From assembly GCA_017614655.1 (NCBI GenBank), contig JAGABO010000054.1, positions 1 to 12,053 of the forward strand: a DNA stretch of 12,053 nucleotides, in the 5' to 3' direction. A model generated the notes under the pieces. That model did no database searches. It worked only from the letters and a program-made list of their open reading frames with translations, and was not told where the DNA came from. The position numbers were made by a program, and so were the translations under genes. Positions 1,675 through 11,875 of the stretch are shown here, in pieces; position 1 is the first letter of the stretch; every line of letters begins with the position of its first letter. Source of the stretch: Treponema sp. Its GTDB lineage: Bacteria; Spirochaetota; Spirochaetia; Treponematales; Treponemataceae.

Positions 1675-1704
1675 TTGATCTGATTCAAGCCGCTCTTGTA
1701 TAAG
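1675..1704 (+). promoter_or_regulatory. Candidate sigma-70-type promoter for livJ, overlapping the terminator
   Basis: TTGATC (1675-1680; 4 of 6 to TTGACA) and TATAAG (1699-1704; 5 of 6 to TATAAT) are separated by 18 bases. The -10 lies in the loop and right arm of the terminator hairpin. Transcription would start near 1711, giving a leader of about 20 bases that contains GGAGG (1722-1726) before the livJ ATG at 1732. livJ needs a promoter after the terminator or overlapping it, and only 66 bases are available. This is a pattern match only. Confidence 0.4.
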
Positions 1705-1718
1705 GGCGGCTTTATTTT
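1687..1718 (+). terminator. Rho-independent terminator of the ribosomal/rpoA operon
   Basis: An 11-bp stem (AAGCCGCTCTT at 1687-1697 with AAGGGCGGCTT at 1702-1712, one G-T wobble) closes a 4-base loop GTAT. It runs straight into TATTTT (1713-1718). It sits 21 bases after the zinc-ribbon gene stop and only 9 bases before the livJ Shine-Dalgarno. Confidence 0.9.
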
Positions 1719-1731
1719 AATGGAGGAATAT

Positions 1732-2874
1732 ATGAAAAAATCGGTAACTCTTCTTGCTCTTACTGCTGCATTTGTTCTTGCAGGATGTTCAAAGAAGTCG
1801 GATGCTGACACAATCAAGATTGGTGGAGTTGCTCCTCTTTCTGGTGGTGTTGCAGTTTATGGTGTTGAGTGTAAGAACGGTATTGACCTCGCAATTGCAG
1901 AAATCAATGCTGCAGGCGGTGTAAATGGAAAGACACTTGAGTTCATTTGTGAAGATGATGAAGGCGATGCTGCAAAATCAGTAAATGCTTATACTAAACT
2001 TGTAACAAATGATGGTGTAAACCTTGTTATCGGTTCACTTACTTCCGGATGTACAATTGCTATTACTCAGCAGGCTCAGGCAAATGGTGTAGTTCAGATT
2101 GCACCGGCTGCAACAGCTCTTGCTGTAACAGATGCTGGTAACTATATTTTCCGCGCATGCTATACTGATCCGTTCCAGGGTCGTGTAGGCGGTAAGTTTG
2201 CTGCCGTAAACCTCGGTGCAAAAAAAGCTGCAGTTCTTTTTGATATCGGAAATGACTATTCTGTTGGTCTTAAAGATAACTTTGTTGCAGAATTTACTGC
2301 CCGCGGTGGAGAAGTTGTTGCAGAAGAATCTTATATCACTAACGACAAGGATTTTAATGCACAGCTTACAAAGATTAAGTCTACAAATCCTGATGTTGTT
2401 TATCTTCCTGATTACTACGGAACAGTTTCTCTTATCGCAAAACAGCTCCGCGCTCAGGGAATTGATGCTCCAATCGTAGGTGCTGACGGATGGGACGGAC
2501 TTGTTGGTCAGGCTGGTGATGAAGTTCTCGGCGGATACTATTCAAATCACTATGCAGAAGACAGCACAGACGAAAAAGTTCAGTCTTTTGTAAAAGCATT
2601 TAACGGCAAGTACGGCAAGGCTCCGAATGCATTTGCAGCTCTCGGATATGACTGTGTTTACATGCTTAAGGCAGCAATCGAAAACGCTGGAAGTTCAGAT
2701 GCTGAAGCAGTTCGCGATGCTCTCGAAAACATCAATATGGATCTCGTAACAGGACACATTGTTTTTGATGCAAAGCACAACCCGCTTAAATCAGCTGTAA
2801 TGGTAAAGATTTCTAAGGATGCAGAAGGAAACCTTTACACAGCTTATGAAGCAACTGTTGATATCAACGAGTAA
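1732..2874 (+). CDS. livJ: Branched-chain amino acid ABC transporter substrate-binding lipoprotein
   Basis: Periplasmic-side receptor of a Liv-type (HAAT family) importer, expected to bind leucine, isoleucine, valine or related amino acids and deliver them to LivHM. The 380-residue protein starts MKKSVTLLALTAAFVLAGC: a lysine-rich n-region, a hydrophobic core and a lipobox LAGC with Cys19 as the lipidation site, so it is probably membrane anchored. The mature part begins with IKIGGVAPLSGG and continues with the type I periplasmic binding fold: GIDLAIAEINAAGGVNGK, the ligand-loop region IGSLTSGCTIAI, and APAATALAVTD. Start choice: ATG at 1732 has GGAGG 5 bases upstream. An in-frame TTG at 1696 lies inside the terminator hairpin and would bury the signal peptide. 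The exact ligand cannot be read from sequence. Confidence 0.95.
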   Translation: MKKSVTLLALTAAFVLAGCSKKSDADTIKIGGVAPLSGGVAVYGVECKNGIDLAIAEINAAGGVNGKTLEFICEDDEGDAAKSVNAYTKLVTNDGVNLVIGSLTSGCTIAITQQAQANGVVQIAPAATALAVTDAGNYIFRACYTDPFQGRVGGKFAAVNLGAKKAAVLFDIGNDYSVGLKDNFVAEFTARGGEVVAEESYITNDKDFNAQLTKIKSTNPDVVYLPDYYGTVSLIAKQLRAQGIDAPIVGADGWDGLVGQAGDEVLGGYYSNHYAEDSTDEKVQSFVKAFNGKYGKAPNAFAALGYDCVYMLKAAIENAGSSDAEAVRDALENINMDLVTGHIVFDAKHNPLKSAVMVKISKDAEGNLYTAYEATVDINE

Positions 2875-2902
2875 TTCAGTTTAACGACTGAACCTCAGAA
2901 GA

Positions 2903-2954
2903 GGGCTGATTTTTTATGGAGAGATTCATAAGGAGTCAGCCCCTTTTTATTTTT
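2903..2954 (+). terminator. Long hairpin with T-rich tail between livJ and livH (terminator or attenuator)
   Basis: Left arm 2903-2920 pairs with right arm 2925-2942 over 18 bp around a GAGA loop. The outer seven pairs (GGGCTGA with TCAGCCC) are perfect and the middle includes several G-T wobbles. TTTTTATTTTT (2944-2954) follows after one C. A smaller hairpin (TTCAGT 2875-2880 with ACTGAA 2887-2892) precedes it. No convincing separate promoter was found between here and livH at 3003. The structure is best read as a partial terminator, or a 3'-end stabiliser, that keeps receptor mRNA more abundant than permease mRNA. Confidence 0.75.
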
Positions 2955-3002
2955 AAAAGTTTGCGGTAGAATGAACTACTAAAAATTTGTTGGAGTTATA
3001 AG

Positions 3003-3893
3003 GTGAAGATTTTTCTAACTCAGCTTGTAAACGGTTTTTCGCTTGGTAGTATTTACGCGCTCATTGCTCTGGGCTACACGATGGTTTACGGGATTGTAAA
3101 ACTCATCAACTTTGCTCATGGCGACGTAATGATGGTTGGCGCTTATACAGGTTATTTTGTGCTTGTTTTTTTGGGAGCCTCACCTTTCGGACTTGTCTGT
3201 GCTTTTATAGCGGCAATGTTTGTATGTGCACTTCTTTCTCTCTTAATTGAACGCTGTGCCTACAGACCCCTTCGTTCTGCACCGCGACTTAATTCGCTTA
3301 TTACGGCGATTGCAGTTGAACTTATTCTTCAGAATCTGATGCGTGTACTTCCGTTTGTTGGACCGGATCCGAGACAGTTTCCGACAATGCCGGTTAAACT
3401 GATCAACTTTGGACCTATTGTGATTTCAAATATTCAGCTTATTGTTATCTTTTCGTCGGCAGTTCTTATGCTTGTGCTGAACTATGTCATCAACTATACA
3501 CGTGCTGGAAAGGCAATGCGTGCAGTAAGCTATGACATGGGAGCTGCAAGTCTTATGGGAATAAATGTAAACCGTACGATAGCCGTTACTTTTGTAATCG
3601 GTTCTGTGCTTGCGGGAGCCGGCGGTGTTTTGTATGCAACGTATTATCCGAGTATTGATCCTATGATGGGTTATATACCGGGACTTAAAGCATTTGTTGC
3701 GGCCGTTCTCGGAGGAATCGGCTCGGTGCCTGGTGCCATGGCCGGTGGTATTCTTCTGGGAGTTGCAGAAACAATGGTAAAGGCTTATCTTTCGTCTCAG
3801 TATGCTGATGCGATTTCTTACTGCATATTGATTCTGATTCTTCTTGTAAAGCCTGCGGGACTTCTTGGAAAGAAACGGGTTATTAAGGTTTAA
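3003..3893 (+). CDS. livH: Branched-chain amino acid ABC transporter permease LivH
   Basis: First inner-membrane permease of the Liv importer. The 296-residue protein is almost entirely hydrophobic helices. It carries the LivH signature early on (YTMVYGIVKLINFAHGD, about residues 25-41). Near the C-terminus is the coupling region FVAAVLGGIGSVPGAMAGG that contacts the ATPases. Length is normal for the family (about 290-310). The start is GTG at 3003 with GGAG at 2992-2995. No ATG upstream fits, and the N-terminus MKIFLTQLVNGFSLGSIYAL aligns with LivH proteins from residue 1. It is followed 15 bases later by livM. LivH and LivM together form the translocation channel. Confidence 0.96.
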   Translation: MKIFLTQLVNGFSLGSIYALIALGYTMVYGIVKLINFAHGDVMMVGAYTGYFVLVFLGASPFGLVCAFIAAMFVCALLSLLIERCAYRPLRSAPRLNSLITAIAVELILQNLMRVLPFVGPDPRQFPTMPVKLINFGPIVISNIQLIVIFSSAVLMLVLNYVINYTRAGKAMRAVSYDMGAASLMGINVNRTIAVTFVIGSVLAGAGGVLYATYYPSIDPMMGYIPGLKAFVAAVLGGIGSVPGAMAGGILLGVAETMVKAYLSSQYADAISYCILILILLVKPAGLLGKKRVIKV

Positions 3894-3908
3894 GCGGGAG
3901 TATAAGAG

Positions 3909-4910
3909 ATGAAAAAGAACTTTTTACGGAATACAGTTTTTCTTTCTATAGTTGCAGTTGCTCTTATAGTTCTGCCGGCTCTTCTTATAAAGGTCCGGGT
4001 TATAAATGCATACTGGGCACGTATTTTTACTTTAGGCGGCGTATATGCGATTCTTGCGCTGAGTGTAAATGTTGTCTGCGGAATTACAGGTCAGCTTTCT
4101 CTTGGACAGGCAGGATTTGCAGCAATCGGTGCGTATGCGGTGATTTTTCTTACGCAGAAAGCGGGTCTTCCTCTTTTTGTAAGTGTGATTTTTGCAGGCT
4201 TTATAGCAGCGTTCTTTGGTTTTTTAATCGGATTTCCTGTATTAAAGCTTGAAGGTGATTATCTTGCAATTGTTACTCTTGCGTTTGGCGAAATCATCAA
4301 GGTAGTACTTCTTAATCAGAAGGAACTTACCGGCGGCCCGAACGGAATGCAGTTTCTTTCGTTTTTTACGTCGAATTTGAAACTTGGTCCGTTTGCAGCC
4401 TGGGTTTCTATAACGGGAACTCTTGTTCTTGTTGTAGTTCTGCTTCAGAATTTTCTGCGCTCTACTTACGGCCGTGCTATAATGGCAGTCCGCGAAGATG
4501 AGATTGCGGCAAACTCAAACGGAATAAGTGTTTTCCGTTACAAGATGATCGGGTTCATCATAGCGGCTTTTATTGGCGGAATCGGAGGTGCTCTTTATGC
4601 ACCGCTCGTTGGTTTTGTTAAGCCTGATTTTGCTGATTTTAATCATTCTGTAAACTATCTGATTTATGTTGTTCTTGGCGGAATGGGAAGTACTACCGGA
4701 AGTATTCTTGCAGCTTATTTACTTACAGTTATTCAGGAATATCTGCGCTTCCTGGGGAACTTCAGGCAGCTTTTCTATCCGCTTATCCTGATTTTTGTAA
4801 TGCTGTTCAGACCGCAGGGACTTCTTGGAACAAAGGAATTCAGTTTTGTAAAAGTGCTGGAAAAATCATTCAGCTTTCTTAAGGGAAAGAAAAAGGAGGC
4901 CGTACAATGA
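3909..4910 (+). CDS. livM: Branched-chain amino acid ABC transporter permease LivM
   Basis: Second permease subunit, partner of LivH. The 333-residue protein begins with a basic segment and a hydrophobic helix. It has the LivM motifs LSLGQAGFAAIGAYAV (about residues 64-79), LEGDYLAIVTLAFGEI, LTGGPNGM, and the late coupling motif YVVLGGMGSTTGS. The C-terminal PQGLLGTKEF is typical of the family. It is shorter than E. coli LivM (about 425 residues), which has an extra N-terminal region, but matches the common 310-340-residue form. GGGAG (3896-3900) precedes the ATG. The stop overlaps the livG start by ATGA, and AGGAGG (4894-4899) inside its end serves livG. Confidence 0.96.
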   Translation: MKKNFLRNTVFLSIVAVALIVLPALLIKVRVINAYWARIFTLGGVYAILALSVNVVCGITGQLSLGQAGFAAIGAYAVIFLTQKAGLPLFVSVIFAGFIAAFFGFLIGFPVLKLEGDYLAIVTLAFGEIIKVVLLNQKELTGGPNGMQFLSFFTSNLKLGPFAAWVSITGTLVLVVVLLQNFLRSTYGRAIMAVREDEIAANSNGISVFRYKMIGFIIAAFIGGIGGALYAPLVGFVKPDFADFNHSVNYLIYVVLGGMGSTTGSILAAYLLTVIQEYLRFLGNFRQLFYPLILIFVMLFRPQGLLGTKEFSFVKVLEKSFSFLKGKKKEAVQ

Positions 4911-5713
4911 GCGAAAAGACCCTTCTTCTTCGGGCAAATGATATTTCAATTGTGTTCGGCGGACTTAAGGCTGTAAGCGATTTTAATCTTGAACTGTACA
5001 AAGGTGAACTTATCGGTCTTATCGGGCCGAATGGTGCAGGTAAAACGACTGTATTTAACATGCTCTCGGGAGTTTATACACCTACTTCGGGAACAATCAC
5101 CTTTGTTGATAAATCAGGAACGCTCAGAATCATCAACAAAAAATCACCGGCTCAGTTAAATAGGCTGGGAATTGCACGAACGTTCCAGAACATCAGGCTT
5201 TTTTCTTCGCTGAGTGTTGCAGATAATATTAAGATTGCACTTCATCAGCAGAGAAAAGTAAATCCGCTTGATGTGCTTTTTAGGCTTCCGCGTTATCACA
5301 AAGACGAAGAGCGTATGGAAGAAAAGGCCATGATGCTTCTTAAGCTTTTTCATCTTGAATCAAAGGCCGGGGAACTTGCAAAGAATCTTCCGTATGGAGA
5401 ACAGAGAAAACTGGAAATATGCCGTGCTCTTGCCGCTTCTCCGGAACTGCTGCTTCTTGATGAACCTGCTGCCGGTATGAATGATCAGGAAACGCATGAG
5501 CTTATGGAGATGATTGCCTTTATACGAAAGGAATTTAATCTTACGGTTCTTCTTATTGAACACGACATGAAGCTTGTAATGGGAATCTGCGAACGACTTC
5601 TTGTTTTAAACTATGGCCGGGTTATTGCAAGCGGAACTCCTTCTGAGATTCAGAGTAACGAAGAAGTAATTACGGCTTATCTTGGTTCAGGCTACAAAAA
5701 GGAGGCGGAATAA
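4907..5713 (+). CDS. livG: Branched-chain amino acid ABC transporter ATPase LivG
   Basis: One of the two cytoplasmic ATPases that power the importer. The 268-residue protein has Walker A GPNGAGKT at 40-47 and a Q-loop TFQNIRLF (Gln94). The signature is LPYGEQ at 161-166, Walker B LLLLDEP at 181-187, and the switch His219 lies in LLIEHD. The signature differs from the classical LSGGQ, but Tyr in place of the first Gly is normal for LivG proteins. Pro in place of Ser is a milder oddity. The region between Walker A and the signature contains the extended insert typical of LivG. The end of the gene provides GGAGG (5701-5705) for livF, and its TAA shares one base with the livF ATG (TAATG). Confidence 0.96.
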   Translation: MSEKTLLLRANDISIVFGGLKAVSDFNLELYKGELIGLIGPNGAGKTTVFNMLSGVYTPTSGTITFVDKSGTLRIINKKSPAQLNRLGIARTFQNIRLFSSLSVADNIKIALHQQRKVNPLDVLFRLPRYHKDEERMEEKAMMLLKLFHLESKAGELAKNLPYGEQRKLEICRALAASPELLLLDEPAAGMNDQETHELMEMIAFIRKEFNLTVLLIEHDMKLVMGICERLLVLNYGRVIASGTPSEIQSNEEVITAYLGSGYKKEAE

Positions 5714-6423
5714 TGAGTCTTCTTGAAGTAAAAAATCTTGTCGTTTCTTACGGAGCAATCAAGGCTCTTAAAGGAATAAGTTTTTCTGTTGAACAGGGTG
5801 AAATAATTACGCTTATCGGTTCAAACGGGGCTGGTAAAACAACGACACTTCATTCAATCAGCAATCTTGTAAAAAAATCAGAAGGAAGCGTTGTGTTTAA
5901 CGGAAAAAACATAACGACTCTTGCGCCAGATAAAATCGTGCGTGAAGGTCTTATTCAGGTTCCTGAAGGACGCCGTGTTTTTGCAAACATGAGTGTTAAG
6001 GAAAACCTGGAAATGGGTGCTTACCTTAGAAACGACAAGGCACAGATAAAGAAAGATTTAGACTGGTGTTTTGAACTTTTCCCGCGTCTTAAGGAACGTA
6101 TTAATCAGATTTCGGCAACTCTTTCCGGCGGTGAACAGCAGATGCTTGCGATGGCACGTGCAATTATGAGCAGTCCGGAACTTCTTCTTCTTGATGAGCC
6201 GAGTATGGGTTTGGCGCCGATTCTTGTTGATGAAATATTCAACATCGTAAAAAAAATCAGTTCAAGCGGAAAAACAATTCTTCTTGTTGAACAGAATGCG
6301 TTTAAGGCACTTTCTATTGCTGACCGTGCTTATATTCTTGAAACAGGTACAATCACAAAAGAAGGAAAGGCTAGTGAACTTATAAACGATGATGCCGTTA
6401 AGGCTGCATATTTAGGAGGCTGA
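5713..6423 (+). CDS. livF: Branched-chain amino acid ABC transporter ATPase LivF
   Basis: Second ATPase of the Liv importer, forming a heterodimer with LivG. The 236-residue protein has Walker A GSNGAGKTT (36-44), the LivF motif VPEGRRVF (83-90), signature LSGGE (137-141), and Walker B LLLLDEP (157-163). As usual for LivF, the H-loop histidine is replaced by Gln194 (LVEQNA), which suggests the two ATP sites are unequal. It starts within the livG stop codon (TAATG, 1-base overlap). The stop is 2 bases before the CBS-ACT gene, whose ribosome binding site AGGAGG (6414-6419) lies in the last codons of livF. Confidence 0.96.
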   Translation: MSLLEVKNLVVSYGAIKALKGISFSVEQGEIITLIGSNGAGKTTTLHSISNLVKKSEGSVVFNGKNITTLAPDKIVREGLIQVPEGRRVFANMSVKENLEMGAYLRNDKAQIKKDLDWCFELFPRLKERINQISATLSGGEQQMLAMARAIMSSPELLLLDEPSMGLAPILVDEIFNIVKKISSSGKTILLVEQNAFKALSIADRAYILETGTITKEGKASELINDDAVKAAYLGG

Positions 6424-6425
6424 TT

Positions 6426-7067
6426 ATGCTTATTAGAGATGTTATGGTAAGGAATCCTATTACTGTTAAACAGGAGATGAGTGTCGTAGATGCGAAGCGT
6501 GTTCTCCAGGCTAACAAGATAAGCAGTGTTCCTGTTATGAATAAAAATGATGAACTTGTGGGAATCATTACAAGAAATGATCTTCTTAAAATTTTTCCGA
6601 GTGAAGCTACTACTCTTGATGTTTATGAAATTGCAGGGCTTCTGAATAAAATTTCTGTAAAGGACGTGATGACTAAATCCGTAAAAACTGTTTCTGAAGA
6701 TTTTACTGTAGAAGAAGCAGCGCGGCTTATGGCTGATTATGATATCGGCTGTCTTCCTGTTTTGAACGGAAACCTTCTTGTAGGAATTGTAACTGTAAGC
6801 AAACTATTCAGGGCATTTATTAATATGTTCAGTACAAGTACGCCGGGAGTTCGTGCAATTATTTCCATGGAAGATAACCGCGGAACTCTTGCAAATATTG
6901 CTTCAAAAATTGCAGCAGCAGGCGGCAACATCATTTCGGTTGTTACTTACGATTCTGTAATTGCAAACCAGAAGAAGGTTACGATTAAGTCAACGGTTTC
7001 TGTTGAGGACTTTAAGAGAATTGCATCTGAATGTAATGCCGAAATCTGTGACATAAGGAATGTTTAA
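6426..7067 (+). CDS. CBS-CBS-ACT domain protein, last gene of the liv operon
   Basis: A 213-residue soluble protein with two CBS motifs followed by one ACT domain, an AcuB-like layout. CBS1 covers about 1-57 (MLIRDVMVRNPITV, then ISSVPVMNKNDELVGIITRNDLL). CBS2 covers about 77-132 (VKDVMTKSVKTVSED, then IGCLPVLNGNLLVGIVT). The ACT domain covers about 142-213, with the expected turn DNRGTLANIASKIAAAGGNI and conserved Gly153. CBS pairs usually bind adenine nucleotides, and ACT domains usually bind amino acids. There are only 2 bases between livF and this gene, with AGGAGG in the livF end, so it is cotranscribed and probably coupled. A role as sensor or modulator of branched-chain amino acid uptake is inference from context. 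No catalytic domain or membrane segment is visible. Confidence 0.9.
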   Translation: MLIRDVMVRNPITVKQEMSVVDAKRVLQANKISSVPVMNKNDELVGIITRNDLLKIFPSEATTLDVYEIAGLLNKISVKDVMTKSVKTVSEDFTVEEAARLMADYDIGCLPVLNGNLLVGIVTVSKLFRAFINMFSTSTPGVRAIISMEDNRGTLANIASKIAAAGGNIISVVTYDSVIANQKKVTIKSTVSVEDFKRIASECNAEICDIRNV

Positions 7068-7185: not shown

Positions 7186-7216
7186 GATGTAATTTGCCAG
7201 GAGGGCAAATTACATC
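7186..7216. repeat. Perfect 13-bp hairpin spanning the lptB stop codon
   Basis: GATGTAATTTGCC (7186-7198) pairs perfectly with GGCAAATTACATC (7204-7216) around AGGAG. On the minus strand the right arm reads as the last Met codon and TAA of lptB, so the hairpin begins at the very end of that gene. It may act as a transcript end or RNase barrier for the minus operon. A T tract is lacking. Confidence 0.8.
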
Positions 7217-7971
7217 GAGAAGTCTTTTCCGAGATAAATTTCGCGGGCTTCCGGGGAGCGCAGGATTTCTTCCTTGTCTCCCTGAGTAATAATCTGGCCG
7301 TTAGAGATAATGATTCCCCTGTGCGTTATTTCCAGTGTATCGCGGACGTTGTGGTCCGTGATGAGGATACCGATTCCCTGTTTACTTAAAAGCTTGATTA
7401 TTCCTTTAATGTCAGCAACGGCAATCGGGTCAATACCGGCGAACGGTTCATCAAGAAGAAGGAACTTTGGTTCTATTGCAAGAGAGCGGGCAATTTCCGT
7501 ACGGCGCCGTTCTCCTCCCGAGAGGGTGTAAGCCTGCTGTTTTCTGATTCGGCCGATTGCAAACTCTTCGATAAGCTGTTCAAGACATTCGTGTTTCTGC
7601 TTTTTATCCAGGTCTTTACGGCGTTCAAGAATGGACCAGATGTTTTCTTCGACAGTGAGTTTTCTAAAAACAGAAGGCTCCTGTGGAAGATAGGAAATGC
7701 CGAGCTGTGCGCGTTTGTACATCGGAAGCTGGGTAATGCATTTATCATTTAAGAAGATGTCGCCTGAGGTTGGTTTGTAAAAGCCTACAATCATGTAGAA
7801 GCTGGTGGTTTTTCCGGCGCCGTTTGGTCCGAGAAGGCCGACTATTTCTCCGTTAGTCATGGAAAAATCAATTCCGCGGACAACATTTTTTCTTCCGAAG
7901 GATTTGAACAGGGCAGATACTCTTAGAGTTGAAGTTACCGGATTTGAATTGAAATCTGCTTCTGTACTCAT
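7210..7971 (-). CDS. lptB: LPS-export-type ABC transporter ATPase LptB
   Basis: Cytoplasmic ATPase that, in the Lpt system, powers extraction of outer-membrane glycolipid from the inner membrane by LptFG. The 253-residue protein has Walker A GPNGAGKT (48-55), Q-loop Gln97 in YLPQEPSVFRKL (an LptB hallmark), signature LSGGERRRTEIAR (150-162), and Walker B LLLDEPFAGIDP (171-182). The switch is His207 in LITDHNV, and the C-terminal region is typical of the family. An N-terminal extension of about 15 residues precedes the usual start. ATG overlaps the lptA stop (ATGA), with AAGGAG upstream, so I kept this start. It is the last gene of the minus operon. Its stop codon lies inside the inverted-repeat element. 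No lptF or lptG is in the window. Confidence 0.95.
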   Translation of the reverse strand: MSTEADFNSNPVTSTLRVSALFKSFGRKNVVRGIDFSMTNGEIVGLLGPNGAGKTTSFYMIVGFYKPTSGDIFLNDKCITQLPMYKRAQLGISYLPQEPSVFRKLTVEENIWSILERRKDLDKKQKHECLEQLIEEFAIGRIRKQQAYTLSGGERRRTEIARSLAIEPKFLLLDEPFAGIDPIAVADIKGIIKLLSKQGIGILITDHNVRDTLEITHRGIIISNGQIITQGDKEEILRSPEAREIYLGKDFSM

Positions 7972-8747
7972 TGTTCTTCTCCTTCTTTTGATTTTACTTC
8001 GGTATTTTTTTCTGCAGTTTGTGTTTCTTCTTTAGCAGTCACTTTTTCTTCTGAAGGTTCAGTTTTTGTTTCTGATGATTCAGTGGCTTCTTTTGCGGGG
8101 GCCGGGGATTCAGTTTTATTTTCTTCTTCTTTTGATTTAGAAACTACAGAGCCCTTAACTCTTCCGTCGAGAGTGATTTCGTTTGTTTCCAGGTTTAAGG
8201 TAATGTTCTGGGCGCGGAAAGTATCTTCTCCCTGAGTAATGCGCGGATTTCCCGTAAGTTCAAGCATCTGTTCCGTTTTTTTGTAGACTGCGTAAGAGGC
8301 GGTACAGTGATTGTCCTTCTGAACAAGACTTACCTGAACGGACATTACTGCGATGTCGGTATCCTGATTGTATTCGATTATTTCTGCATCGGCGGTAACA
8401 GAATTTTTTTCATCAATAAGGTGAACACTGTTTTCGAGAACGGCAATTTTTGTCTGCCTGTCATATTTCATGGAAGAACAGGTAAAAGAAAGTTCACTCT
8501 GAAGGTTGCGTCCGCTTATGTTTCCTTCTGCTGTTATGATGCGGTAGTCTTTTCCAGAGAGAGTGATTTCATCGGCATGTATTTCCATTGAGTCGGTAAG
8601 GATATAGGCACTGCCTTTAAGAGATGTAGTGCTTGTGCTGCTTCCAGCAGTTCCCGACATTGATTCTGCAGAGAAGGAGATTTTTTCGGCAGCTAACGGG
8701 GAGAGAAGAAAAAATGCTGATACAAAAAGAGCTGCTTTAATTTTCAT
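7968..8747 (-). CDS. lptA: LptA/OstA-like periplasmic transport protein with charged C-terminal tail
   Basis: A 259-residue OstA-fold protein, the expected periplasmic bridge of the Lpt system. The signal peptide is about residues 1-20 (hydrophobic core FVSAFFLL, cleavage after LAA). The body (about 45-200) shows the alternating short beta-strand pattern of this family: MEIHADEITLSG, ITAEGNISGRNLQ, VTADAEIIEY, FRAQNITLNLETNEITLDG. Residues about 203-259 are a low-complexity tail rich in Glu, Lys, Thr and Ser, probably disordered and absent from E. coli LptA. Cys90 and Cys148 could form a disulfide. It overlaps lptC by 11 bases, and its ribosome binding site (AAGGA) lies in the purine-rich codons of the LptC tail. 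It overlaps lptB by 4 bases. The family call rests on fold pattern plus neighbours. Confidence 0.85.
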   Translation of the reverse strand: MKIKAALFVSAFFLLSPLAAEKISFSAESMSGTAGSSTSTTSLKGSAYILTDSMEIHADEITLSGKDYRIITAEGNISGRNLQSELSFTCSSMKYDRQTKIAVLENSVHLIDEKNSVTADAEIIEYNQDTDIAVMSVQVSLVQKDNHCTASYAVYKKTEQMLELTGNPRITQGEDTFRAQNITLNLETNEITLDGRVKGSVVSKSKEEENKTESPAPAKEATESSETKTEPSEEKVTAKEETQTAEKNTEVKSKEGEEQ

Positions 8748-9318
8748 CTTTTTTTTCCTTTTGTTCCTTTGCAGCTTCTTCTTCGGTTTCTTCTTTTTTG
8801 ATTATCGTTCCAGAAACATCGTAGCCGAAAGCGTAGGATAGTGTTATGCCGCTTGCAGAAAAACCGCGTCCGAAAATTTCTACATCATCGCGGAAAAGTT
8901 CAACATAGTCATCTGCGCCCGAAGTGAGCTGTTCGGTTTTTGCATTCCATTTTAAGTTGTCTGCAATAATCTGCATGTTCTGTTCATTGTTCTTGAGCTT
9001 AATTTTTTCGTAAAGGGTGTAGATTTCGTTTTTTGTATCCATCGCAAGAAGTGAACAGCTTCCTGTTGTTGCTGCGTTATTGTTTTCATCGAAGGTGGTA
9101 AAGGCTGGATTTTTTGCATAACAAGAGCGGTCAGAAGCGTACTGTTCAAGTTCGTCTGCATCCATGTCCATTGTTTTCCTTGAATTTTCATAACGCGTAA
9201 AGTGTGTGTTAATAAAAACAAATTCAGGAACAATGTCTTTGACACTTCTTTCTGCGCCGTAATCAAGCGAACATGAGAAAAACAGAATTGCTGATGCAGA
9301 CAGAACAAGAAATTTCAT
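8737..9318 (-). CDS. lptC: LptC-family protein, predicted lipoprotein
   Basis: A 193-residue protein with the LptC-type pattern PEFVFINTHFTRY...DADELEQY (about 31-60) and later IKLKNNEQNMQIIADNLKWNAKTEQLTS. In E. coli, LptC is held in the inner membrane by an N-terminal helix and passes glycolipid to LptA. Here the N-terminus MKFLVLSASAILFFSC ends in a plausible relaxed spirochaetal lipobox (LFFSC, Cys16), so it may be lipid-anchored instead. Cys66 and Cys88 could pair. The last 20 residues are a Glu/Lys-rich tail, as in the downstream LptA. ATG overlaps the pyrG stop (ATGA). No good Shine-Dalgarno is visible, so translation probably depends on coupling. The call combines weak sequence pattern with position before lptA-lptB. 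Confidence 0.8.
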   Translation of the reverse strand: MKFLVLSASAILFFSCSLDYGAERSVKDIVPEFVFINTHFTRYENSRKTMDMDADELEQYASDRSCYAKNPAFTTFDENNNAATTGSCSLLAMDTKNEIYTLYEKIKLKNNEQNMQIIADNLKWNAKTEQLTSGADDYVELFRDDVEIFGRGFSASGITLSYAFGYDVSGTIIKKEETEEEAAKEQKEKKDEN

Positions 9319-10916
9319 TTTTTATTGTCGAGAGCTGCCTTGATAAATGCGTTAAACAGCGGATGTGGCTTTGAAGGTCTGCTTAAAAATTCAGGATGGA
9401 ACTGAACTCCGATTCCGAAAACGTGATCTTTCCATTCAAAGGCTTCTGTCTGCCCGTCCGAAGCGGCACTTGCAGAAATAAGAAGTCCGTGCGAAATCAT
9501 ATCCTGTGAATAGCGGCGGTCAAAAGTATATTTTGAACGATGGCGTTCCGTAATCTGTTCGGTGCCGTAGATTTTACAGAGCTTTGTTCCGCTGGTGAGG
9601 TTTACTTTTGCAGCTCCAAGCTTCATGATTCCGTCGCTTACAAGAGGCTGTTCTTCCGGAAGACTGATTACCGGATGCTTTGTTGTCTGAATAAATTCCG
9701 TTGAATCAGCATCATCCCATGAACAGATGTGACGGGCTGTATCAATTGCCATTAACTGCATGCCGAGATCTATTCCCAGATAAGGGATGTTGTTTTCGCG
9801 TGCATGCTTTACTGTTCTAAGAAGACCAAGGAATCCGCGCTGTCCGTAGTTACCGGGCACTACGATTCCGTCTGTATCTGCAAAGAACGGCGCAATATCG
9901 CTTGTGTTTTCCAGTGCCTCTGCATCAATTTTCTTAATTGTAATATCGGTATTGTTTCCGGAAACTGCTGCGTGGAAAAGAGATTCCTGTACACTCTTGT
10001 AACAGTTGTCGAGGTAATCTTTTTTTCCTACAAGAGCAATTACGGCCTTGTGTTCAGGATTTGCAAGTTTTCCGAGGAAAGATTCCCATTCAGAAATGTC
10101 AGCGCTGCGGTCATTAAAGTTAAAGCGCGAAAGAATTCTTTCGGTAAGTTTCTGTTCATTAAAGATAACCGGAAGTTCATAAACTGACTGTTTAACATCT
10201 GGCGAAACAAAAACGGAGGCCGGATTTACGTTACAGAAAAGTGCAATCTTCTTTTTGAGGGATTCATCAACTTCGCCTTCACAGCGGCAGATGAGGATGT
10301 CCGGCTGAATACCGACATTCTGCAGCTGCTTAACGGAATTCTGTGTAGGTTTTGATTTAAGTTCACCGCCTGTAATTACAGGAATGAGCGTAAGATGAAC
10401 AGAAAGAACATTTTCTTTTCCAAGTTCGCGCATGAACTGACGGGCAGCTTCCAGATAAGGAACGGCTTCGATATCACCGACAGTACCGCCGATTTCTACG
10501 ACAACAACATCAGCACCTGAAGAAGAAGCAACATGCCTGATGCAGCGCTTTATTTCATCAGTAACGTGTGGAATAACCTGAACTGCACGTCCGTTGTATT
10601 TACCCGCACGTTCATTGTTGATTACATTCTGATAGACTTTTCCGATTGTAAGACAGTTTTCGCTGCTTAAAGAGCCGTTTGTAAAACGACTGAAGTTACC
10701 GAGATCAAGGTCTGTTTCTGCACCGTCTTCCGTTACAAAAACTTCTCCGTACTGATATGGACTTATATTTCCGGCATCGACATTGATATAGGGATCACAT
10801 TTCATCATGGCAACTTTAAGGCCACAGGATTCAAGAAGACTGCCGATTGTGCTTGAAGCAACGCCTTTTCCAAGACTTGAGCAGACGCCGCTCGTTACAA
10901 GGATATACTTACTCAT
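9315..10916 (-). CDS. pyrG: CTP synthase with non-canonical glutaminase site (Cys replaced by Asp)
   Basis: CTP synthase makes CTP from UTP, ATP and an ammonia group, normally released from glutamine by its own C-terminal domain. The 533-residue length is normal. The synthetase domain (about 1-270) is well conserved: SSLGKG (P-loop, 13-18), DPYINVD, GEVFVTEDGAETDLDLG, VQVIPHVTDEIK, and GGTVGDIE (143-150). The glutaminase domain (about 290-533) keeps YLGI-LGMQL, ADSTEF and VQFHPEF (His507, Glu509). The catalytic nucleophile position is Asp383 (GIDLGMQ, codon GAT) instead of Cys. The oxyanion-hole motif is VPGNYG (353-358) instead of VPGGFG, and ERHRHRYE is ERHRSKYT. It is therefore predicted to use free ammonia only. 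Shine-Dalgarno is weak, 28 bases follow rseC, and the stop overlaps lptC by ATGA. Confidence 0.95.
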   Translation of the reverse strand: MSKYILVTSGVCSSLGKGVASSTIGSLLESCGLKVAMMKCDPYINVDAGNISPYQYGEVFVTEDGAETDLDLGNFSRFTNGSLSSENCLTIGKVYQNVINNERAGKYNGRAVQVIPHVTDEIKRCIRHVASSSGADVVVVEIGGTVGDIEAVPYLEAARQFMRELGKENVLSVHLTLIPVITGGELKSKPTQNSVKQLQNVGIQPDILICRCEGEVDESLKKKIALFCNVNPASVFVSPDVKQSVYELPVIFNEQKLTERILSRFNFNDRSADISEWESFLGKLANPEHKAVIALVGKKDYLDNCYKSVQESLFHAAVSGNNTDITIKKIDAEALENTSDIAPFFADTDGIVVPGNYGQRGFLGLLRTVKHARENNIPYLGIDLGMQLMAIDTARHICSWDDADSTEFIQTTKHPVISLPEEQPLVSDGIMKLGAAKVNLTSGTKLCKIYGTEQITERHRSKYTFDRRYSQDMISHGLLISASAASDGQTEAFEWKDHVFGIGVQFHPEFLSRPSKPHPLFNAFIKAALDNKK

Positions 10917-10944: not shown

Positions 10945-11352
10945 TTATTCAACTGCTACTATAGTAGACTTTCCGGGAAGATCGATTTTTCTTGTAAAAA
11001 TAAAAACAAATATGCTGGAGACGGCAAGGAAGGAAAGTACGCAGACGGCCCGTATTCCGTCCGAAACCGCAAGTTCAAAAAGTCCTGCAATTTTCGGGGC
11101 GGTTATGTAGCCGAGTATTGCGCAGAAAAAAGGAAAGAGAAGGCTTATAAGGCCGGAGATTCCCTGCATGAACGGTGAGTTGTCCAGAGTTACGATACTG
11201 CCTTTTTCTATTTTAAAGCCGTGCGGATTTGAAACTGAATATTCAACCTGGACACTTTCGCAGCCGTGTGTACAGGAAATGCAGCTGCTTTTGAGTATGG
11301 GACGTACTGTAATTGATTTTTCTACGGAAACAACAACGGCTTTTTTTGTCAT
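10945..11352 (-). CDS. RseC/MucC-family membrane protein
   Basis: A 135-residue protein with the RseC_MucC family layout. It has a short soluble N-terminal part with a cysteine cluster (Cys24, Cys27, Cys31 in SSCISCTHGCES), then a small beta-rich stretch ending in KKGS-like turns (KIEKGSIVTL). Two transmembrane helices follow (about 65-87 and 103-122). In other bacteria, members modulate sigma-E signalling or help reduce SoxR together with Rnf-type electron transport proteins. The cysteines suggest a redox or metal site. Which role applies here cannot be decided: no rnf, rseA/B or soxR gene is in view. The ATG follows the TPR gene stop by 1 base, with only a weak GTGGA upstream, so coupling is likely. 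Confidence 0.82.
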   Translation of the reverse strand: MTKKAVVVSVEKSITVRPILKSSCISCTHGCESVQVEYSVSNPHGFKIEKGSIVTLDNSPFMQGISGLISLLFPFFCAILGYITAPKIAGLFELAVSDGIRAVCVLSFLAVSSIFVFIFTRKIDLPGKSTIVAVE

Positions 11353-11353
11353 G

Positions 11354-11875
11354 TCAGTTATTCCACAGTTTGAGCTTTTCTACACAGGATTCGTATCCGG
11401 CTTTGTTACCGAGTTCTTCGTAAGTGTCGCGCAGGTTGTAAAGGGCATCATAGTAGTACGGATTTAAGATAAGCGCCTGTTCAAAGGCAATGCTTGCTTC
11501 TTCGTATTCGCCGCTCTTAAAAAAGACAACGCCTGTTGTATTCCAGATGTGTGCGTTTTCGGGCTGAATGTTGATGCCGAGTATTGTGTACCGTCTTGCT
11601 TCGTCCATGTTTCCGAGTGTGAGTGAAAGGTGCGCAAGAGTTTCGATGATTTCTCCGTCTTCCGGATTCATGATGAAGGCTTTTTCTACAGCTTCTTTTG
11701 CTTTCTGAAGTTCACCTGCATCTCTGTAAGTAATTCCCAGATTAAACCAGAGAAGATAGTTTTCTTTTTCTATAGTAATAGCGCGCTTTAAACATGCGAT
11801 GGCTTCTTCGAAGTTACCGCTGGCTGCGAGATTAATTGCCTGATTGTTTAACTTTTCACAGCTTTCGATCATCAT
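11354..11875 (-). CDS. TPR-repeat protein
   Basis: A 173-residue soluble protein made almost wholly of about five tetratricopeptide repeats of 34 residues (about 6-39, 40-73, 74-107, 108-141, 142-173). Typical positions are visible: W/L-x-x-L-G, Y, G-x/E-A, A, A-L-x-x-N-P. Good examples are LLWFNLGITYRDAGELQKAK and IWNTTGVVFFKSGEYEEA. TPRs bind other proteins or peptides, and no catalytic domain or signal peptide is present. The start is the first of two adjacent ATGs (11875), which has GGAG 8 bases upstream and overlaps the upstream gene stop as ATGA. Its position before rseC, pyrG and lptCAB suggests a scaffold for envelope or redox functions, but the partner is unknown. Confidence 0.9.
   Translation of the reverse strand: MMIESCEKLNNQAINLAASGNFEEAIACLKRAITIEKENYLLWFNLGITYRDAGELQKAKEAVEKAFIMNPEDGEIIETLAHLSLTLGNMDEARRYTILGINIQPENAHIWNTTGVVFFKSGEYEEASIAFEQALILNPYYYDALYNLRDTYEELGNKAGYESCVEKLKLWNN

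Follow-up and report, generated by a model that had tools for sequence, protein, structure and literature searches.

Cytidine triphosphate (CTP) synthase, PyrG in bacteria, is generally treated as a glutamine-dependent enzyme that is activated by guanosine triphosphate (GTP). The gene considered here, pyrG2, lies on a 12,053-nucleotide contig of a Treponema sp. genome (JAGABO010000054.1 in assembly GCA_017614655.1; this whole stretch is called the window). Its product, PyrG2, resembles the bacterial PyrG enzymes of E. coli (1s1m) and T. thermophilus (1vco) in its two-domain fold, in the residues of its sites for adenosine triphosphate (ATP), uridine triphosphate (UTP) and CTP, and in the His and Glu of its glutaminase triad; unlike them, it lacks the nucleophilic Cys, and its lid, oxyanion glycine and GTP cleft are remodelled.

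Excerpts of three studies bear on the residues concerned. One (PMC9138612) includes Leu109, Gly352, Arg356, Arg468, and Arg470 in the set of residues linked with activation by GTP, and reports that E. coli G352P has no detectable glutamine-dependent activity and is almost fully active with NH4Cl. In the Drosophila enzyme, according to an excerpt of the second (PMC8325340), GTP is contacted by Leu107 (E. coli Leu109), Phe373, Arg376 (E. coli Arg356), Tyr307, and Arg481, and outside NH3 is suggested to enter at the GTP site; Phe373, Tyr307, and Arg481 were equated with E. coli Phe353, Tyr298, and Arg470 by a motif-based mapping made in the present analysis. The third, likewise in excerpt (PMC11211670), has CTP synthase still using ammonium after binding 6-diazo-5-oxo-L-norleucine (DON), which shuts the path through the pocket of the glutamine amidotransferase (GATase) domain. 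The G352P and DON-inactivated forms, as these excerpts present them, are like PyrG2 in that the glutaminase is dead and the ammonia reaction is kept, as it would be in PyrG2; they are, however, mutant or chemically blocked, whereas PyrG2 is natural and long-conserved. Among the matches listed in a search of open-licence literature (titles and beginnings of abstracts), no description of a natural Cys-less CTP synthase was found. A further likeness is mammalian carbamoyl-phosphate synthetase I, whose GATase domain lacks the Cys and which uses ammonia directly, although it belongs to another enzyme family and to the urea cycle.

The pyrG2 reading frame runs on the minus strand from 10916 to 9315 without an internal stop and encodes a full-length CTP synthase. 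Its features are given below, E. coli residue numbers here and throughout being read off the MG1655 pyrG gene itself; the native PyrG are those of other spirochaete families.

9315..10916, minus strand: pyrG2, Cys-less CTP synthase of 533 amino acids (TIGR00337, Pfam, structure model)
9768..9770, minus strand: GAT codon of Asp383 at the nucleophile position, E. coli Cys379 (codon reading, alignment)
9849..9851, minus strand: Asn356, E. coli Gly352, at the junction of oxyanion hole and lid L11 (alignment)
9531..9533, minus strand: Lys462, E. coli Arg470, a GTP-cleft residue (Lys in 61 of 61 PyrG2, Arg in 154 of 154 Cys-bearing PyrG)
10593..10595, minus strand: Asn108, E. coli Leu109, in loop L4, a GTP contact from the adjacent subunit (Asn in 61 of 61 PyrG2, Leu in 18 of 19 native spirochaete PyrG)
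9390..9398, minus strand: His507 and Glu509, the rest of the triad (codon reading, alignment)

The first-pass annotation of the window had proposed a CTP synthase with Asp at the position of the glutaminase nucleophile. Rereading the codons of the nucleophile elbow (minus strand, GGA ATA GAT CTC GGC ATG CAG, giving GIDLGMQ) upheld this, with Asp383 (codon GAT, 9770-9768) aligned to E. coli Cys379, and a recheck of the codons found His507 and Glu509 in place, as it had reported. The triad therefore reads Asp-His-Glu rather than Cys-His-Glu, and the elbow is without the nucleophilic Cys of an active class I glutamine amidotransferase. The protein scores 651.2 bits against the TIGR00337 profile (cut-off 462.75), covering model positions 2–526 of 526, and matches both Pfam CTP_synth_N and GATase. 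Its predicted structure (predicted local distance difference test, pLDDT, 89.4; predicted template-modelling score, pTM, 0.89) fits solved CTP synthases over the whole length, with a template-modelling (TM) score of 0.96 to T. thermophilus CTP synthetase 1vco. Lys18, Lys40, Asp72, and Glu140, the synthase catalytic residues, are all present.

The substitution is confirmed as a clade-wide feature. PyrG2 is present in 22 of 59 genomes of the same genus, with Asp at the nucleophile position in 21 and Asn in one, and the remaining PyrG rows of that sample have Cys in 50 of 50. Across the phylum, a pattern for Asp or Asn at this position matched 32 of 392 genomes: 26 of the 50 from this genus, 5 of the 30 from the family's other genera, and 1 of the remaining 312; the match outside the family (G484, L375) was rejected as PyrG, there being no PyrG-like frame at that place, and two PyrG2 of the family were overlooked by the pattern (G349, GINSGMQ; G404, GIGLGMQ). 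An alignment of spirochaete PyrG contains a clade without Cys, such as the first-pass annotation had advised looking for, its 61 distinct members having Asp (56) or Asn (5), and members found later having Gly (L464) and Asn (L465). Cultured isolates are among them: the Asp form occurs in Treponema parvum, T. saccharophilum, T. socranskii paredis, and Treponema sp. Marseille-Q4130, and the Asn form in T. lecithinolyticum.

Around the nucleophile, the two halves of the protein have fared differently. Lys18, Lys40, Glu140, Gly143, Asp147, Glu149, Lys187, Lys189, Gln192, Arg211, and Lys223 do not vary in any of the 61 distinct PyrG2, and Asp72 is kept in 60. In the same 61 sequences Gly352 is replaced by Asn (54), Ser (6), or Val (1) and Tyr298 by Lys (49), Arg (10), Gln (1), or Glu (1), while Phe353 has become Tyr in 51 and Glu359 Leu in 55. 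The set of GTP-site residues is accordingly incomplete: Arg356 and Arg468 are retained, and Leu109, Tyr298, Phe353, and Arg470 are substituted. Positions fixed in the 19 native Cys PyrG are replaced in PyrG2 at 4 of 130 sites in the synthase domain and 13 of 86 in the GATase domain (Fisher p 0.0018), and PyrG2 has its own set of fixed GATase residues. Judged from sequence, the changes cluster in the glutaminase and GTP site and the synthase site is kept, which gives good support to the earlier suggestion that the Cys-dependent glutaminase has been lost; with the nucleophile and Gly352, Phe353, Arg470, Tyr298, and Leu109 replaced clade-wide, such a loss would extend to the whole clade. A further candidate, E77S, was dropped as a PyrG2-specific change: Glu77 is also absent in 18 of 19 native spirochaete Cys PyrG, so that the change is not tied to loss of the Cys.

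Both domains are under purifying selection. The median ratio of nonsynonymous to synonymous substitution rates (dN/dS) over 33 close PyrG2 pairs is 0.039 for the synthase and 0.079 for the GATase domain, compared with 0.043 and 0.096 over 15 pairs of Cys PyrG of the genus. The low GATase value indicates that this domain of PyrG2 is maintained and not decaying; purifying selection is evidence for some function of PyrG2 and does not say which.

By gene order PyrG2 belongs to the lpt-linked spirochaete lineage, lying directly upstream of lptC-lptA-lptB. In the native PyrG loci lptC or lptA adjoins pyrG in 17 of 19, and the Cys is present in 19 of 19; lptC lies downstream on the same strand in 41 of 42 PyrG2 loci, the 42nd being cut by a contig end (two of the 42, L036 and L118, are apparently the same contig). 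PyrG2 also groups with the native lpt-linked PyrG in the tree, with a Shimodaira-Hasegawa-like approximate likelihood-ratio test (SH-aLRT) value of 94 in the smaller set, just below the starred level of 95, and the Cys PyrG of Treponemataceae is placed elsewhere, apart from both. A recent duplication of the treponeme Cys PyrG, which would make it a clade with PyrG2, was rejected by the approximately unbiased (AU) test (p 4.8e-6), as was a single spirochaete clade of PyrG2, native PyrG, and treponeme Cys PyrG (p 0.001); the groups were chosen after the tree had been viewed, which makes these p values optimistic. The simplest account, in the order of events that we infer, is acquisition of a foreign PyrG by Treponemataceae, after which the native copy, relieved of glutamine-dependent synthesis, lost its glutaminase. 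Separately, Treponema sp. Ehx436_bin20 (L376/L127/L238) has a native-type, lpt-linked PyrG, the sole copy found, that reads GISLGMQ and has Gln at the position of His515; its loss of the Cys is a separate step, outside the PyrG2 clade in the tree.

The same genome also encodes a normal enzyme. In this draft of 1.5 Mb (57% complete), the second pyrG that the first-pass annotation advised looking for is present on another contig, directly upstream of a guaA-like gene; it has an intact GICLGMQ (L001), and its product is 45% identical to PyrG2. CTP can therefore be made from glutamine, any use of ammonia would be an extra route, and the earlier conclusion that this organism makes CTP from free ammonia does not follow for the cell and is not supported. 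Of the 22 genomes with PyrG2 in the genus sample, 20 have a Cys copy that was read; G054 has an unread fragment, and a search for a second PyrG in G013 found none. Both forms occur in 12 of 12 (G109-G112, G114-G121) and 4 of 4 (G318, G349, G404, G430) further genomes, and, since G430 and G115 look like one genome (their PyrG genes have matching positions and their Cys PyrG are identical), the Cys copy was read in 35 of 37 distinct PyrG2-bearing genomes. A link between PyrG2 and missing glutamine synthetase was rejected, since PF00120 has matches in 58 of the 59 genus genomes, whether or not they carry PyrG2; the single one lacking a match is the 57% complete window genome. Six treponeme genomes rated 94–99% complete have no PyrG match at all (G007, G034, and G042 in the genus; G324, G333, and G369 in the family) and would need cytidine salvage or another CTP route.

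From sequence, conservation, gene order, tree grouping, and selection we infer that PyrG2 is probably an ammonia-dependent, GTP-uncoupled CTP synthase that works beside a normal one. PyrG2 would be the vertically inherited, lpt-linked spirochaete CTP synthase, and the second Treponemataceae PyrG, of other ancestry and guaA-linked in the window genome, would supply glutamine-dependent CTP. The old copy would have lost its glutaminase, with replacement of the nucleophile by Asp or Asn and of the lid/oxyanion glycine by Asn, and with remodelling of the GTP cleft. At the intact N-terminal site ATP would phosphorylate UTP, NH3 would arrive from the solvent via the cleft between GATase and synthase domains, which GTP closes in normal enzymes, and the GATase domain may have been retained as a structural or gating module.

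Several observations weigh against this proposal. Constraint on the GATase domain is close to that seen in a working glutaminase, and there is no obvious need for this in a pure ammonia enzyme. In the 19 genomes with both forms, conservation of PyrG2 is lower than that of the Cys copy (mean identity 0.714 vs. 0.786). No PyrG2 is seen in 37 of 59 same-genus genomes (three of them, G002, G037, and G053, with untyped fragments), nor has PyrG2 so far been seen replacing the normal enzyme: among the 37 distinct genomes only G013 has PyrG2 without another PyrG, and it is a draft in which pyrG2 lies in two frames. The catalytic Asp72 is Asn in T. lecithinolyticum (L246/L139) and in G404 (L464), so that the synthase of this branch may be dead, possibly a fully non-catalytic form. 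The statement in the first-pass annotation that the entire synthetase core is kept holds for the catalytic residues and fails at E. coli His57, which is Tyr56 in the window protein; the His is absent in 7 of 61 PyrG2. Some structural work places this position at the exit of the tunnel.

The constraint on the GATase domain is the main reason that two other roles, as a partner and as a sensor, stay in play. PyrG2 might be mainly a regulatory or structural partner that enters mixed tetramers or filaments with canonical PyrG and tunes it through binding of CTP, UTP, and ATP, its own catalysis being secondary or lost; this seems unlikely. It would suit the presence of a Cys PyrG in 35 of 37 genomes, the conserved nucleotide-site residues and GATase domain, and the two PyrG2 members without Asp72, but a non-catalytic partner would not require Lys18, Lys40, and Glu140 to be invariant, and the two PyrG of the window genome, only 45% identical, have different ancestors and are encoded apart. 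Less likely still, the rebuilt Asp/Asn-His-Glu pocket would have a new chemistry or ligand: it would bind a small non-glutamine metabolite, or release ammonia from another amide, and pass the signal or the ammonia to the synthase site. Such a pocket would be consistent with Asp or Asn in 61 of 61 sequences (the sole Gly, L464, belongs to the branch that also lost Asp72), with the GATase dN/dS of 0.079, and with the fixed GATase residues peculiar to PyrG2; against it, Asn could not act as a carboxylate would, the glycine beside the oxyanion hole is gone, and class I GATases are not known to use Asp or Asn as nucleophile. Dependence of the organism on free ammonia for all of its CTP is very improbable: the Cys is lost, and the idea is plausible where a Cys-less PyrG is the sole copy found (32 of 50 non-spirochaete genomes examined, see below), but the canonical GICLGMQ PyrG of the window genome contradicts it unless that copy is silent. 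Sequencing error, a chimera, or a decaying gene, to which a draft assembly of 57% completeness might lend itself, is already refuted, in line with the first-pass argument against sequencing error, by the Asp/Asn form, which isolates, 61 distinct sequences and 22 of the 59 genomes of the genus share, by a frame without a stop, and by median dN/dS <0.1.

An ammonia-dependent PyrG2 could have counterparts elsewhere. A collection scan (one genome per species, 84,980 species) used a Cys-excluding pattern to which not all contexts are visible, so that its counts are lower bounds; it found at least 117 Cys-less stretches, each of these 117 lying in a frame with homology to E. coli PyrG. The residue among the 117 matches listed is Gly (61), Asp (37), Ser (10), Asn (5), or Ala (4), and among these all 37 Asp and all 5 Asn are from spirochaetes. 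The matches listed fall in at least 10 named phyla: Bacillota, Spirochaetota, Planctomycetota, Bacteroidota, Methanobacteriota, Acidobacteriota, Synergistota, Myxococcota, Thermodesulfobacteriota, and Cloacimonadota. A quick tree requires at least 16 switches between Cys and another residue, 12 of them forced by well-supported branches, counting gains and losses together on rows hand-picked from the matches.

Further PyrG copies (>100 bits) were sought in 63 genomes of the 117 matches listed, 50 of them non-spirochaete. In 32 of these 50 the Cys-less gene was the only PyrG match >100 bits, a single-copy status that is provisional in that most of the 50 are drafts of unstated completeness; of the other 18, 15 also have a Cys PyrG, G085 has two pieces, both Gly, and G092 and G102 have an extra N-terminal fragment. 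Isolates among the 32 are five Sporosarcina, Filibacter tadaridae, and Methanimicrococcus blatticola. The sole-copy forms of Sporosarcina, Filibacter, Methanimicrococcus, and various Clostridia are like PyrG2 in having lost the nucleophile and kept the synthase site.

In the genus of Sporosarcina cyprini 41 of 41 genomes have one PyrG, Cys-less, with Gly (22), Ser (16), or Ala (3) (G520 has an additional short piece), and no Cys copy was found in these 41 genomes (L208, L210-L212, L280-L307, L358-L366). Tyr298, Gly352, Phe353, Arg356, Glu403, Arg468, Arg470, His515, and Glu517 are retained in all 41, whereas PyrG2 has changed Tyr298, Gly352, Phe353, and Arg470; Glu359 is variable, and Gly351 has become Ala in 15 of the 41. 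Weak glutaminase activity is still conceivable, in principle, for the Ser forms. Decay of the GATase domain in Sporosarcina, at which an identity-based GATase/synthase ratio had hinted (3.61 vs. 1.46), was withdrawn, the GATase dN/dS being 0.049 vs. 0.108 in Cys forms of the family and the nine GATase/GTP residues being kept in 41 of 41. In a 61-genome sample of the surrounding family 50 were read, 46 with Cys; G061, G107, and G513 are also Cys-less by other readings, and eight genomes were unread. The ammonia-rich niche suggested by the first-pass annotation suits the Sporosarcina genus sample, where the sole PyrG is Cys-less in 41 of 41, better than it suits the treponemes. Archaeal PyrG with Gly at the nucleophile position occur in Methanimicrococcus and relatives (L107, L154, L088, L368, L373); in M. 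blatticola (G082) the Gly type is the only PyrG found, and in the family around Methanimicrococcus Cys is present in 33 of 34 full-length rows, L368 having Gly.

A broader reading, which we offer tentatively and hold slightly less probable than not, is that ammonia-only CTP synthases are a natural recurrent form: the PyrG Cys would have been lost many times, the Sporosarcina genus (41 genomes) and M. blatticola would rely on such an enzyme alone, and the treponeme GATase domain would have been rebuilt around Asp or Asn and maintained by selection, serving as a new gate or sensor in cells that also have a normal PyrG. PyrG2 itself is a natural, clade-wide Cys-less variant of a known CTP synthase. 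If natural ammonia-only forms exist, sometimes as the sole copy, the glutaminase half would be dispensable in nature, and these enzymes would serve as clean models of the ammonia route, of GTP control, and of the abandonment of substrate channelling. Glutamine antagonists whose target is the Cys should not react with them. The reported ammonia requirement of Sporosarcina pasteurii, a species not identified in the sampled genomes, fits an ammonia-only CTP synthase, which could be one molecular reason for it among others.

The genes adjoining pyrG2 in the window are as follows.

7210..7971, minus strand: lptB (356.6 bits to TIGR04406)
7968..8747, minus strand: lptA (family match)
8737..9318, minus strand: lptC (PF06835)
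10945..11352, minus strand: RseC/MucC-like protein, 28 bases upstream of pyrG2 (PF04246)
11354..11875, minus strand: tetratricopeptide repeat (TPR) protein upstream of the RseC-like gene (family match)

The pyrG2 stop overlaps the lptC start by 4 bases (ATGA), and lptA and lptB follow. The 20 genus genomes examined without PyrG2 have lptA and lptB in all 20 and a recognised lptC in 19, with no PyrG2 adjoining; in four such loci (L340, L342, L345, L357) the TPR and RseC-like genes abut lptC directly, which marks the site where pyrG2 is missing. LptB is above cut-off in 57 of 59 genus genomes, with or without PyrG2. Given the lpt neighbourhood, a supply of CTP by PyrG2 for activation of 3-deoxy-D-manno-oct-2-ulosonic acid (Kdo) was considered and rejected as a general role, kdsB being above cut-off in 1 of 59 genus genomes, with three further full-length matches below it (G017, G001, G046). 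Clustering of the neighbour genes returned mostly shadow frames and no hint on function. Between rpoA-rplQ and the lpt genes, window positions 1696-7067 hold genes of a branched-chain amino-acid-type ATP-binding cassette (ABC) transporter, with a CBS/ACT-like protein at the end; the transporter genes are presumably in the order livK-H-M-G-F, names assigned from a reading of the sequence.

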